Positions 1 to 33,435 of a DNA stretch of 33,435 bases are shown here, piece after piece (within the stretch, counting starts at the first letter, position 1; every line of letters starts with the position of its first letter). Origin of the DNA: Candidatus Latescibacterota bacterium (GTDB lineage: Bacteria > Latescibacterota > UBA2968 > UBA8231); the NCBI GenBank assembly GCA_007571365.1, contig RKRN01000293.1, positions 1-33,435 of the forward strand. Direction: 5' to 3'. Below the pieces are notes generated by a model that saw only the letters and a list, made by a program, of their open reading frames with translations, had not been told where the DNA came from and made no database searches. Made by a program: the position numbers and the translations under genes.

Positions 1-1
1 C

Positions 2-211
2 TGCTTTGCGGGCGCTCGTGTCGGGGTGCTCGGGCTGTGGCGGCGCGGGAGCTGGGCGCTCTGCCTGGTTGTGGTGGCGGTCTTCTTCGTCGTGAGCACT
101 GCCGGCTTGGTGTTGCTGGCGGCGCACGTCTATTGCGAGCTGGCGGTTTTAGGGTCGGTTATCTTGTTTGCGGTGGTGGTGAGCCGGGTGCGCGAGTTGT
201 CCGGCGGATAG
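2..211 (+). CDS. C-terminal end of a small membrane protein (partial)
   Basis: The reading frame is open from base 2 to a TAG stop at 209-211, so this is probably the end of a gene that begins outside the window. An internal GTG at 26 could also start a 61-residue protein. The visible peptide has two strongly hydrophobic stretches, one beginning ALCLVVVAVFFVVSTAG and one around LGSVILFAVVVS, consistent with two membrane helices and a short charged tail (RVRELSGG). I recognise no family. The next gene on this strand starts 138 bases later behind its own promoter, so the two are probably separate units. Coding status is moderately supported at best, because GC-rich frames often stay open by chance. 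Confidence 0.35.
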   Translation, partial: CFAGARVGVLGLWRRGSWALCLVVVAVFFVVSTAGLVLLAAHVYCELAVLGSVILFAVVVSRVRELSGG

Positions 212-9397: not shown

Positions 9398-10792
9398 TTA
9401 CCCGCGCTCAAACACCTTGGCCGGCAGATACGTAGCCAACTCCGGCACAAACCACAGCCCCACTAACAGCAGCACCTGAATCGCGATAAAGGGCACGACT
9501 CCCCGGTAGATCTGCGGTGTGCTGATCTCAGGCGGAGCGACGCCGCGCAAATAAAAGAGCGAGAAGCCAAACGGCGGCGTGAGAAAAGAGGTCTGCAAAT
9601 TCAGAGCGATCATTACGCCCAACCACACCGGATCCAAGCCCATCGCCAAGAGGATCGGGCCGACGATGGGGACGACGACAAAGATGATCTCAAAGAAGTC
9701 GAGAAAGAAGCCGAGCAAAAACATCACCGCCATCACCAGCGCGAAGGAGCCGAGGACGCCGCCAGTCGCCTCATGGGCCAGAAAGTGCTCGACCGCTTCG
9801 TCGCCCCCATAGCCGCGAAAGACCAGCGAAAACACGCTCGCACCGATGAGTATGATAAAGACCATGGCGTTGATCTCGGTGGTGGTGCGCATGACTTCTT
9901 TGAGCGCGGCGCGGTTGAAATGCCCTTTGGCCAGCGATAAGAGCATGGCGCCCACCGCGCCGACCGAAGCCGCCTCAGTCGGCGTGGCCACCCCGAAGAG
10001 GATAGAGCCGAGGACGCCGCCGATGAGGACTAGCGGCGGCACGAGGGCCGCGCCGAGGCGGCGGAGGAAGGCCGCGCTGAAAATTTGGGTGCGCTCGGCG
10101 ACGGGCACGGCGGGCACGGCGGCTGGCTTGAGGAGGCCGAGCCCGATGATGTAGAGGATGTAGAGACTCATCAACACGAGGCCCGGCAACAGCGCACCCA
10201 TAAAGAGGTCGCCGACCGATACGGAGACCGGGGCAAAGTGGCCCATCTTGAGCTGGGCCTGCTGGTACGCCGAGGAAACGACGTCGCCGAGGATGACGAG
10301 CACAATGCTGGGCGGTATGATCTGACCGAGCGTACCCGAAGCGCAAATAATGCCGGTGGCAACCGCGGGCGAGTACGTGCGTTTGAGCATGGCCGGCAGC
10401 GAAATGAGTCCCATGGTGACGACCGTCGCGCCGACGATGCCGGTGGAAGCTGCCAACAGGCCGCCGACCAGGCAGACCGAAATCCCCAAGCCCCCGCTCA
10501 GGCGGCCACAGAGCTGGGCCATGGTGGCGAGCAGGTCTTCGGCAATTTTTGAGCGTTCTAGCACGACCCCCATAAAGACGAACAGCGGCACGGCCATCAG
10601 GGTCTCGTTGGCCATGATGCCGTAGATGCGGGTCGGCAAAGCCGAGAGAAAGGCCGCGTCAAAGTGGCCGGTGAGGATGCCGAGGCCGGCAAAGCCGAGG
10701 GCTGTACCCGCGAGGCAAAAGGCCACTGGGAAGCCAGATAGCAGCACCGCGAAGGTGCAGAGGAACATGGCCAGCGGCGCGAGTTCGCTCAT
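9398..10792 (-). CDS. TRAP transporter large permease (DctM/TakM-like)
   Basis: A 464-residue inner-membrane protein, the ion-coupled translocation subunit of a tripartite ATP-independent periplasmic transporter. It contains roughly a dozen hydrophobic helices and typical DctM stretches such as PLFVFMGVVLERS, GLLAASTGIVGATVVTMG, SGTLGQIIPPSIVLV and ATPTEAASVGA. Its ATG at 10792 overlaps the stop of the small permease gene as ATGA, so the two are translationally coupled; the longer frame to 10936 merely reads through the small permease gene. It is the last gene of the operon and converges with the transglycosylase gene, with only 13 bases between the stops and no visible terminator. The partner binding protein suggests 2-oxoacids as substrate. 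Confidence 0.92.
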   Translation of the reverse strand: MSELAPLAMFLCTFAVLLSGFPVAFCLAGTALGFAGLGILTGHFDAAFLSALPTRIYGIMANETLMAVPLFVFMGVVLERSKIAEDLLATMAQLCGRLSGGLGISVCLVGGLLAASTGIVGATVVTMGLISLPAMLKRTYSPAVATGIICASGTLGQIIPPSIVLVILGDVVSSAYQQAQLKMGHFAPVSVSVGDLFMGALLPGLVLMSLYILYIIGLGLLKPAAVPAVPVAERTQIFSAAFLRRLGAALVPPLVLIGGVLGSILFGVATPTEAASVGAVGAMLLSLAKGHFNRAALKEVMRTTTEINAMVFIILIGASVFSLVFRGYGGDEAVEHFLAHEATGGVLGSFALVMAVMFLLGFFLDFFEIIFVVVPIVGPILLAMGLDPVWLGVMIALNLQTSFLTPPFGFSLFYLRGVAPPEISTPQIYRGVVPFIAIQVLLLVGLWFVPELATYLPAKVFERG

Positions 10793-11265
10793 GGGTTGCG
10801 GAGGGTTTGGACGCTGTGGTGAATGATGGCTAGGGCTTGCAAAAACAGCAGTAAGAAGCACAGGGGAATGGCGGTTTTGAGCAGATAGACCGCCTCCAAG
10901 CCGCCGCCGTCTTGGGAGCCTTCGAGCACGGCCCAAGAGCCGGCGACAAAGGGCAGCGACTGGTAGAACAGCACCGCGCAGCAGGGAATCAAAAGCAGCA
11001 AGCTACCCAAGAGATTGACCAAGGCTTTGCGCTGGATGCCCAAAGGCCGGTAGAGGATATCGACGCGGACGTGCGCGTCGCGTGCGAGGGTATAACTGGC
11101 TGCGAGGAGGAAGGTAAACGCGTGCATGTACAGGGCTATTTCCTGCATCCAGACCCAGCCGCGCCCAAAGAAGTAGCGCAAAATCACGACGATAAAAGTC
11201 ACCAAGACCATACCTAGCGTCAGCCAAGGCACGGTGTGGGCGATGCCGCGGTTGAGGCGTTCCAT
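10789..11265 (-). CDS. TRAP transporter small permease (DctQ/TakQ-like)
   Basis: A 158-residue membrane protein with four hydrophobic helices: THTVPWLTLGMVLVTFIVVIL-like segment first, then EIALYMHAFTFLLAASY, LLGSLLLLIPCCAVLFYQ, and a final helix around AIPLCFLLLFLQALAII. DctQ proteins link the binding protein to the large permease. WMQEIALY and DAHVRVDILY are family hallmarks. I chose ATG 11265, seven bases after the binding-protein stop; a TTG at 11280 in the same frame would overlap that gene. No strong Shine-Dalgarno is seen, fitting translational coupling. The stop overlaps the large permease start. Confidence 0.88.
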   Translation of the reverse strand: MERLNRGIAHTVPWLTLGMVLVTFIVVILRYFFGRGWVWMQEIALYMHAFTFLLAASYTLARDAHVRVDILYRPLGIQRKALVNLLGSLLLLIPCCAVLFYQSLPFVAGSWAVLEGSQDGGGLEAVYLLKTAIPLCFLLLFLQALAIIHHSVQTLRNP

Positions 11266-31469: not shown

Positions 31470-32357
31470 ATGGCTCTCTTGCAGGCTATTGCGATGTACG
31501 GCCGCATGATCAAGTTCTCCCACAGCGTCTTTGCTCTGCCCTTCGCCTTTAGCGGTGCCTTGCTGGCCGCGGCTCACGCGGGTATCACCCCGGGCCAGAT
31601 CGGCTGGATTGCGCTGGCGATGGTGGGGGCGCGCAGCGCGGCGATGGGTTTCAATCGCCTCGTCGACCGCCACCTCGATGCGGCCAATCCCCGCACGCAA
31701 AACCGCGAGTTGCCGCGCGGCGTGGTTTCGCCGCAGGCTGTGGGATTGTTCGTAGTCCTGTCGGCCTTGGTCTTGGTCTTGGCAGCTTATCAGCTCAACC
31801 CGCTGTGCTTTTATCTGTCGCCGCTGGTTTTGGCCGTGCTCTTGTTCTACTCCCTGACCAAGCGCTTTACTTGGGCCTCTCACTTGGTTTTGGGGCTGAG
31901 TTTGGGTGGGGCACCGCTGGGTGCTTGGATTGCGGTCACTGGCGGCTTCGACCTCGTACCGCTGCTGCTCTGCCTAGGGGTGCTGGTTTGGGTGGCCGGC
32001 TTTGACATCGTCTACGCCTGCCAAGATCACGCCTTTGACATCCGCGCCGGCCTCCACTCTATCCCGGTGCGCTTTGGCATTGCCCGCGCTTTGTACCTCG
32101 CCCGCGCCTTGCACCTGTTGTTCGTGCTGGTGCTGATCCTCGTGGGCCGGCTGGCTGGCTTGAGCCTTTTGTACTGGTTGGGGGTAGTAGTGGTAGCCGG
32201 CCTGCTGGTGTACGAGCATCGGCTGGTGCGGGCCGACGATCTGTCCCGCATGAGCACGGCCTTTATGACGGTCAACAGCACGGTCAGCCTGATCTACTTT
32301 GCTGCGATCTGGGCCGATCTGCTCGTCTTTGGCGAGGGAGAATTGCTGCGCTTGTGA
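31470..32357 (+). CDS. mqnP: UbiA-family prenyltransferase of the futalosine pathway (MqnP)
   Basis: A 295-residue inner-membrane enzyme with eight to nine helices that would attach the isoprenoid chain to 1,4-dihydroxy-6-naphthoate. The first Asp-rich motif is NRLVDRHLDAANPRTQNREL, and the second is YACQDHAFDIRAGLHSIPVR; both are characteristic of MqnP rather than UbiA or MenA. It has AAGGAAGG at the right distance before ATG 31470 and lies 12 bases after mqnA. It ends the operon; the next gene starts 18 bases later but has different composition and is probably a separate acquisition. mqnB, mqnD and mqnL/M are not in the window. Confidence 0.9.
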   Translation: MALLQAIAMYGRMIKFSHSVFALPFAFSGALLAAAHAGITPGQIGWIALAMVGARSAAMGFNRLVDRHLDAANPRTQNRELPRGVVSPQAVGLFVVLSALVLVLAAYQLNPLCFYLSPLVLAVLLFYSLTKRFTWASHLVLGLSLGGAPLGAWIAVTGGFDLVPLLLCLGVLVWVAGFDIVYACQDHAFDIRAGLHSIPVRFGIARALYLARALHLLFVLVLILVGRLAGLSLLYWLGVVVVAGLLVYEHRLVRADDLSRMSTAFMTVNSTVSLIYFAAIWADLLVFGEGELLRL

Positions 32358-32374
32358 CGGGGAAAGGAAAATAT

Positions 32375-33435
32375 ATGAATATCAATGCTAGTATTATCGA
32401 CCAGAGGGTATCGGGTATTGTCGAAGATCACCCCGAATGGCTGCCTGAAGGGAACGACCTTAATAAAAAAAAGTCAGCGGCATTCGTGCTCCTGTGCATG
32501 TCAACATGCCTTGACATGATGCTTGAAGATAGTGCCGAATTACTTACCGAGGGCGGAAATGATGTCGGCGTTGATGGGCTTCATATTGGCGAAATTGAAG
32601 ACGGTGATTTTCTCGTCACGATCTTTCAAGGCAAGTACAAGATCAAAGATCTGAGCGGCAAAGCAAACTTTCCAGAAAATGATGTTCAAAAAGCTTTAGG
32701 GACCGTTCGGGTGCTATTTGATCCCAATAGAAATGTAGTCCTCAACCAAAAAATAGCCCCTAAAATTGAGGAGATCCGTTCGTTGATCCGCGATGCGTAT
32801 ATTCCCAATGTTCGGGTAATTCTTTGCAATAACGGAGATCGCTGGACAGCGCAAGCTGATAATTGGATAGCTAGCGCAGCAGCGGATTACGGGGATAAAG
32901 TAAAGTTCATCCACTGCAACCACGATTCTATCGTCGATATCTTACAGCGCAGCAAAAAGGTGGATACCATCCTGACACTTAGTGGACAAGCTATTGTAGA
33001 AGATATGAACTATATGCGCGTTTTGCTCGGGCGCGTTTCCGTGCAGGAGATTCAACGACTATTTGACGAGCACGGCGACGGCCTACTCGAGCGCAATATC
33101 CGCCGTTACCTTGGGCTGCACACCAATCGCGTCAACACGGCAATTCACGAGACGCTTTGCGATCCAAGCAAATCCGACAAATTCTATTTCTATAATAATG
33201 GCATTACCGCAGTCTGTGACCGATTTGATTACAACGCTTTTCAGCAATCAGACTACAAGGTACAACTCAAGAATATGCAGGTGATCAATGGGGGGCAGAC
33301 CTGCAAGACGATTCAAGAGACACTAAATGGAAATCTGCCTAACACAGTCGGCCAGTCTGCCTATTTGTTGATTCGTATTTATCAGTTAGCCGATGCCCAT
33401 AAGGAAGTCGTCCAAGACATCACCTACGCTACCAA
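32375..33435 (+). CDS. AIPR-family phage-resistance protein with nuclease-like N-terminus (partial)
   Basis: The frame runs from ATG 32375, behind GGAAAGGAAA, to the window edge, 353 residues without a stop. The N-terminal part has GGNDVGVDGLHI (60-71), then IFQGKYK (83-89), a D...QxK arrangement like PD-(D/E)xK restriction endonucleases (Asp63/Asp67, Gln85, Lys87). Residues 270-315 carry the AIPR core: FYFYNNGITAV (Asn274, Asn275, Gly276) and MQVINGGQTCKTIQ (Asn305 to Thr309). AIPR proteins are linked to abortive infection of phages, usually with partner genes. GC is clearly lower than in the menaquinone operon just upstream, suggesting recent transfer. It starts only 18 bases after mqnP and may use that operon's promoter. 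Function is by family; partners lie outside the window. Confidence 0.85.
   Translation, partial: MNINASIIDQRVSGIVEDHPEWLPEGNDLNKKKSAAFVLLCMSTCLDMMLEDSAELLTEGGNDVGVDGLHIGEIEDGDFLVTIFQGKYKIKDLSGKANFPENDVQKALGTVRVLFDPNRNVVLNQKIAPKIEEIRSLIRDAYIPNVRVILCNNGDRWTAQADNWIASAAADYGDKVKFIHCNHDSIVDILQRSKKVDTILTLSGQAIVEDMNYMRVLLGRVSVQEIQRLFDEHGDGLLERNIRRYLGLHTNRVNTAIHETLCDPSKSDKFYFYNNGITAVCDRFDYNAFQQSDYKVQLKNMQVINGGQTCKTIQETLNGNLPNTVGQSAYLLIRIYQLADAHKEVVQDITYAT

Follow-up and report, generated by a model that had tools for sequence, protein, structure and literature searches.

The window analysed here, 33,435 bases long and identical to a complete contig (C5) of a Latescibacterota draft genome, ends in the 5′ two thirds of an AIPR-family gene. 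In our best joint explanation, to which we assign a probability of about 0.6, this horizontally spread gene forms the left boundary of a defence hotspot with variable contents, and the encoded protein would act as a single-chain restriction effector. The AIPR family itself is known; the reading of its architecture as a PD-(D/E)xK nuclease joined to a gate, as well as the hotspot between mqnP and ilvD, appear to be new.

Reading frame and left junction of the AIPR gene

In an ORF scan of the window, the AIPR frame opens with the ATG at position 32375 of the forward strand and continues without a stop codon to 33433 (353 codons). The earlier note had described a low-GC AIPR frame just behind mqnP that runs off the window, and both points were confirmed. 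Residues 238–353 match the Pfam AIPR model PF10592 with E = 5e-29 and 102.3 bits (cut-off 25); the GC content of the frame is 45.9% (GC3 51%), compared with 61.9% (GC3 79%) for mqnP and 59.8% for the window. Since the window is the entire contig, the gene (32375–33435) runs off the contig and not merely off the window. Judged from relatives of 552–570 aa, the contig contains the N-terminal 353 of about 552–570 codons, or about 63% of the gene. The missing C-terminal part was found on no other contig when all contigs of the source assembly (a 5.47-Mb draft of 344 contigs with 6.15% contamination) were searched. Family membership is further indicated by the PADLOC model AbiU, which matches the fragment with E = 9e-29, and by the full-length relative L011, which scores 188 bits with PF10592 against the same cut-off of 25.

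The preceding gene (31470–32357, forward strand) encodes an MqnP/UbiA-like prenyltransferase; it is the final core gene in the menaquinone (futalosine) operon and forms the left flank of the hotspot. It scores 298.6 bits with NCBIfam TIGR01475 (cut-off 180.8), MqnP models match it below their own cut-offs, and its DNA is ~90% identical to that of five same-genus genomes. The mqnP stop codon (ending at 32357) and the AIPR ATG are separated by 17 bases, which form the left junction (32358–32374, forward strand). Here, blastn alignments to four same-genus genomes all stop at 32362, five bases past the mqnP stop; the letters 'TGACGGGG', common to the four relatives, close the homology, with the last aligned base at 32350–32362. 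The purine-rich GGGGAAAGGAAAA between mqnP and the AIPR gene is likely a ribosome binding site. Elsewhere in the window, positions 9500–11000 have a strong positive AT skew (0.2–0.33), unlike the remaining sequence.

Predicted nuclease and gate domains

Residues 1–200 (32375–32974, forward strand) are predicted to form a PD-(D/E)xK nuclease domain of the Mrr/FokI kind. In an alignment of 58 AIPR proteins, reaching down to about 16% identity, G65, D67, Q85 and K87 are the only columns of this region that are at least 90% conserved. Asp67 (32573–32575), a putative catalytic metal ligand within the motif GGNDVGVDG, is invariant (58 of 58 sequences, 100%), and Gln85-Gly86-Lys87 in FQGKYK (32627–32635), which would supply the QxK half of the active site, has Q85 in 98% and K87 in 91% of the proteins. 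The PD-(D/E)xK motif, in the form (D/E)...(D/E/Q)xK, is kept across the family, and conservation of D...QxK is, judged from the alignment, far beyond chance. The nuclease-like N-terminus with D...QxK proposed in the earlier note was therefore well placed, its residues being, together with G65, the most conserved of the first 200. The D..QxK motif is also found in five plasmid AIPRs of 18–23% identity and in phage-borne AIPRs, with widely varying spacing. The nuclease core is not universal, since 7 of 43 phage AIPRs have another residue in place of K87 and the motif is missing from MzaE; given that MzaE has an AIPR core, such cores may carry different front domains.

An AlphaFold model computed from a deep alignment (pLDDT 88.7) has a mixed α/β fold in residues 1–200 and places G.D..QxK on strands 68–71 and 78–87, which are followed by a helix. 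A G.D..QxK pattern on two strands, with a helix after them, is the layout of Mrr/FokI-type PD-(D/E)xK enzymes. FokI ranks first in the Foldseek comparison of the model with the PDB (probability 0.99 and 0.93; E = 0.028–0.05, above the significance level of 0.001), and no PDB fold matches the model at E ≤ 0.001. The restriction-endonuclease core that the earlier note anticipated in residues 1–200 is supported by motif conservation and by FokI as the best match, but the match, at E = 0.03–0.05, does not reach significance. A first, shallower model based on 33 close relatives (pTM 0.40) gave no fold match, and a sequence search of the PDB with the family profile gave no match up to E = 10. HMM–HMM comparisons against purpose-built alignments of Mrr_cat, DUF262 and DndB were not significant (p = 0.035 to 0.5 across the three); the best register with Mrr_cat sets QGK on QAK. 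In comparison with Mrr-type nucleases (PF04471), the AIPR protein shares the G.D..QxK signature and the strand-strand-helix order but has no significant HMM match and contains the large additional AIPR domain. Taken with the motif, the model makes it probable that the N-terminal domain is a PD-(D/E)xK nuclease core.

HEPN RNases have an all-helical domain with a conserved R...H motif. In the window's AIPR, residues 1–200 are mixed α/β in the model and contain no Arg or His column conserved in at least 80% of the 58 AIPRs. These observations bear on the possibility that the protein is an RNase-type, HEPN-like abortive-infection toxin and not a DNA-cutting restriction enzyme, as might be expected from the family name, which derives from abortive infection, and from the N-terminal HEPN domain ascribed to AIPR proteins in a published account (PMC3506569). 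The strand and helix layout of G.D..QxK and the fold match to FokI argue against this possibility, and the available part of PMC3710099 lists AbiU2, not AIPR, as HEPN. We consider a HEPN toxin unlikely; on the evidence of the model, the published N-terminal HEPN assignment is not supported for this AIPR branch. The window's protein thus agrees with PF10592 and AbiU in its strong model matches and in the core motifs NNG and NGxQT and differs in having a PD-(D/E)xK-like N-terminus where HEPN had been assigned. PD-(D/E)xK enzymes can cut RNA, so AIPR may still have a suicidal role.

The AIPR core domain (32957–33433, forward strand), truncated where the contig stops, is predicted from PF10592 and matches in the BFVD to be GmrSD_N/ParB-like. 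Its invariant positions among the 58 proteins are N241, R243, N254, NNG, T278, NGxQT, N356 and Q358. Two of the three core motifs, NNG and NGxQT, lie within the window: FYFYNNGIT (residues 270–278; 33182–33208) with N274, N275, G276 and T278 invariant, and NGGQT (residues 305–309; 33287–33301) with N305, G306, Q308 and T309 invariant. The NxQ residues N356 and Q358 fall beyond the contig end and are invariant in the relatives. Such conservation suggests a binding or catalytic pocket. The BFVD fold search returned four viral proteins named after the GmrSD N-terminal domain and one named DUF262 (probability 0.66–1.0, E from 0.002 to 0.09), and the HMM comparison, although not significant, aligned NGGQT with DGQQR of DUF262 and DGQHR of DndB. 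These matches support, but do not prove, a ParB/GmrSD-like gate.

A variable locus between mqnP and ilvD

An ilvD-like gene comes immediately after mqnP, only tens of bases away, in twelve genomes of the family and class. Genomes of the same genus are ~90% identical to the window until shortly after mqnP; beyond that point their genes differ and are mostly of defence type. An AlbA_2/Schlafen gene and a ParA-like gene occupy the site in G007 and also in G001, where they are followed by an HKD-SNF2 gene, a sigma-70 fusion and a type IIG gene. G003 has a Dsr1-like SIR2 protein (L068, 12092–15649), and G002 a 407-aa gene with no Pfam match, the end of which reads like a nuclease. Wherever same-genus contigs reach far enough, Fic, rmlB and ilvD come after the inserts. 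The same site therefore has differing contents in related genomes between conserved flanks, as expected of an island, and the proposal of the earlier note that the AIPR gene is the left edge of an acquired defence locus is supported by this variable, defence-filled site. Low GC alone proves little in this respect, because the loci of the relatives range from 41 to 61% GC. As a separate observation, the Fic-family gene and rmlB (L075, 2902–3957; L065, 6368–7429) bound the right side of the hotspot in all four insert genomes where visible and are missing at the mqnP–ilvD junction of the other genomes.

The right flank of the source genome, Fic-rmlB-ilvD-ubiX, is located on contig C118. To its left are a broken AAA_21 ATPase gene at 37–40% GC, split over two frames, and a phage-integrase-family tyrosine recombinase; a type IIG enzyme is represented by 37 codons that run off the contig on the opposite strand (1–111, minus strand; L075, 1–111). 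From synteny, we infer that C5 and C118 are the two sides of one island. The earlier note's expectation for the downstream sequence was in part realized, in that the core genes on C118 are preceded by the recombinase, the disrupted ATPase gene and the type IIG fragment, but C5 itself ends within the AIPR gene and the flank is placed by synteny. No 11-mers are common to both island borders. By analogy with the closest relatives, a type IIG restriction-modification gene was probably present in the part of the island that is missing between the two contigs.

The inverted type IIG fragment on C118 starts at an apparent specificity (TRD) domain and adjoins the tyrosine recombinase, and the hotspot contig of G001 also ends in the same TRD motif (residue 974; type IIG gene at L066, 10616–13561). 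These contig ends point to a specificity cassette that is repeated or invertible and interrupts assemblies. No inverted repeats of at least 30 bases were found around the type IIG genes of L002, L003, L009 and L016, and L003:6125–6985, grouped by clustering as an inverted type IIG fragment, was rejected as the sequence is sigma-factor-like.

The split AAA_21 ATPase and the fragmentary type IIG gene on C118 would also be compatible with a decaying island in which the AIPR gene is no longer functional. The AIPR frame, though, is open over all 353 codons seen, is 86% identical to intact relatives, and keeps all conserved residues and a good putative ribosome binding site, so we give decay only a small chance.

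Relatives, genomic neighbourhoods and proposed role

A scan of GTDB genomes yielded 38 AIPR relatives of 41–86% identity in Latescibacterota, Verrucomicrobiota, Fibrobacterota, Lentisphaerota, Chlorobiota, Binatota, Planctomycetota, Thermodesulfobacteriota, Pseudomonadota, Cyanobacteriota, methanogens and others. Within the window's own class, AIPR is present in only 4 of 47 genomes. The window sequence alone matched 33 plasmid and 16 phage records, a distant AIPR query matched 157 viral stretches, and AIPR is found in phages and prophages. This distribution over phyla, plasmids and phages would be that of a horizontally spread, widely mobile gene, and this forms part of the joint explanation given at the outset. 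On one viral contig, a close AIPR (69%; L090, 6001–7698) is flanked by a helicase-like gene on one side and tail-type genes on the other.

In the tree, the neighbours of the window protein are L002, L003, L016 and L009, which belong to two Latescibacterota, one Entotheonella and one Binatota; the two Latescibacterota genomes, of the same class as the window, contain the closest relatives, and three of the four companions adjoin HKD-SNF2 and type IIG enzymes. Across the 38 relatives, such type IIG or HKD-SNF2 genes adjoin AIPR in six (L002, L009, L016 and L035–L037), and BREX core genes (BrxC/PglX/PglZ) accompany it in 11. Eight of the latter loci are type-3-like (L004, L008, L011, L012, L013, L014, L027 and L029), with AIPR commonly between PglXI and BrxH or PglZ, and three are type-1-like (L021, L031 and L038). 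Elsewhere AIPR is a single insert in a housekeeping operon: downstream of glmS in L010 and of a SIS-domain gene in L024, between lpxK and an hldE-like gene in L025, and downstream of a T6SS VasJ gene in L020. From these lone inserts and from the BREX and type IIG placements it follows that AIPR can occur by itself and is also repeatedly inserted into methylation-based systems.

The source genome has its own BREX locus on contig C4 (L071, 455–11831), comprising BrxC, a 607-aa protein, PglXI, PglZ and BrxA, with neither an AIPR gene nor a BrxH-sized frame between PglX and PglZ. Because this locus is on another contig without AIPR and the AIPR clade is type IIG-associated, BREX was rejected as the partner of the window's AIPR.

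Several features of these loci are recorded here in their own right. In L010 (8088–11683), AIPR lies 83 bases behind the glmS-like gene, a classical Tn7-type attachment position. In L021 (4981–11604), PglX-like sequence is in two pieces, with a Schlafen/AlbA_2 gene and a gene that clusters with a YhcG-type PD-(D/E)xK gene between them. The sigma-70 fusions of L002 (11724–13346) and L066 (8764–10473) have an N-terminal domain 48–53% identical to the N-terminus of the adjoining type IIG enzyme and a MzaA-like sigma part; a restriction-enzyme front on a sigma factor is unusual.

The lone inserts are also relevant to the idea that AIPR serves chiefly, in the manner of DndB, to regulate or sense an adjoining modification system, its nuclease domain being vestigial. 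One publication assigns the N-terminal domain of DndB to the AIPR family (PMC3506569), another describes DndB as a regulator of the ParB superfamily (PMC12839542), and NGGQT aligns weakly with DGQHR of DndB. Still, D67, Q85 and K87 are far better kept than the rest of the N-terminal domain, and several AIPRs, such as those behind glmS and at lpxK/hldE, stand without modification genes; we rate a mainly regulatory role as unlikely. An assembly or binning artefact, in which an AIPR piece was misjoined to mqnP or came from a contaminating organism, is conceivable for a contig-end gene with its C-terminus missing from a fragmented and partly contaminated bin, but is very improbable, as four same-genus genomes diverge at exactly the same base behind mqnP with other genes there, the closest AIPR relatives come from the same class, and the right flank of the same site in the bin also holds foreign low-GC genes.

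Among known systems, GmrSD/BrxU (DUF262 + HNH) resembles AIPR in the fold search of the core and as a plug-in nuclease in BREX loci; its nuclease is HNH, in contrast to the N-terminal PD-(D/E)xK-like domain of AIPR, and the sequence similarity is not significant. MzaE of the MZA system has the AIPR core in common, and a sigma-70 fusion resembling MzaA adjoins the closest AIPR relative, but MzaE lacks D..QxK and occurs with Z1 and PD-(D/E)xK motif genes; the window fragment and L002 score 47 and 63 bits, respectively, with the MzaE NCBIfam equivalog, far from its cut-off of 1050. BREX auxiliary nucleases, for which a 2026 survey (PMC12839542) describes the same kind of placement, share with AIPR the position in BREX core operons, the PD-(D/E)xK class predicted for AIPR, and Schlafen neighbours; AIPR is not named in the survey's main text.

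No mechanism for AIPR was found in the literature searched. Returning to the single-chain effector, we interpret AIPR as a PD-(D/E)xK nuclease under a GmrSD/ParB-like gate, with a probable role against phages. The N-terminal nuclease would cut nucleic acid, most likely DNA; the core, with its predicted GmrSD_N/ParB-like fold, would sense a nucleotide or phage-altered DNA and gate the nuclease; and the C-terminal helices would bind a partner or the substrate. The protein's mode of action would then be that of the type IV enzymes GmrSD/BrxU, only with a different nuclease, and it would serve next to methylation-based systems as a second layer, either self-contained or plugged in. More tentatively, AIPRs at large could be single-chain nucleotide- or modification-gated nucleases exchanged by BREX, type IIG systems, plasmids and prophages and located, in this genus, beside a recombinase-linked, possibly invertible type IIG cassette. 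For this common and mobile family, the analysis provides predicted active-site residues and a predicted gate and connects it with BREX and type IIG systems, and it indicates the mqnP–ilvD junction as a site at which defence genes of an uncultured phylum can be sampled.
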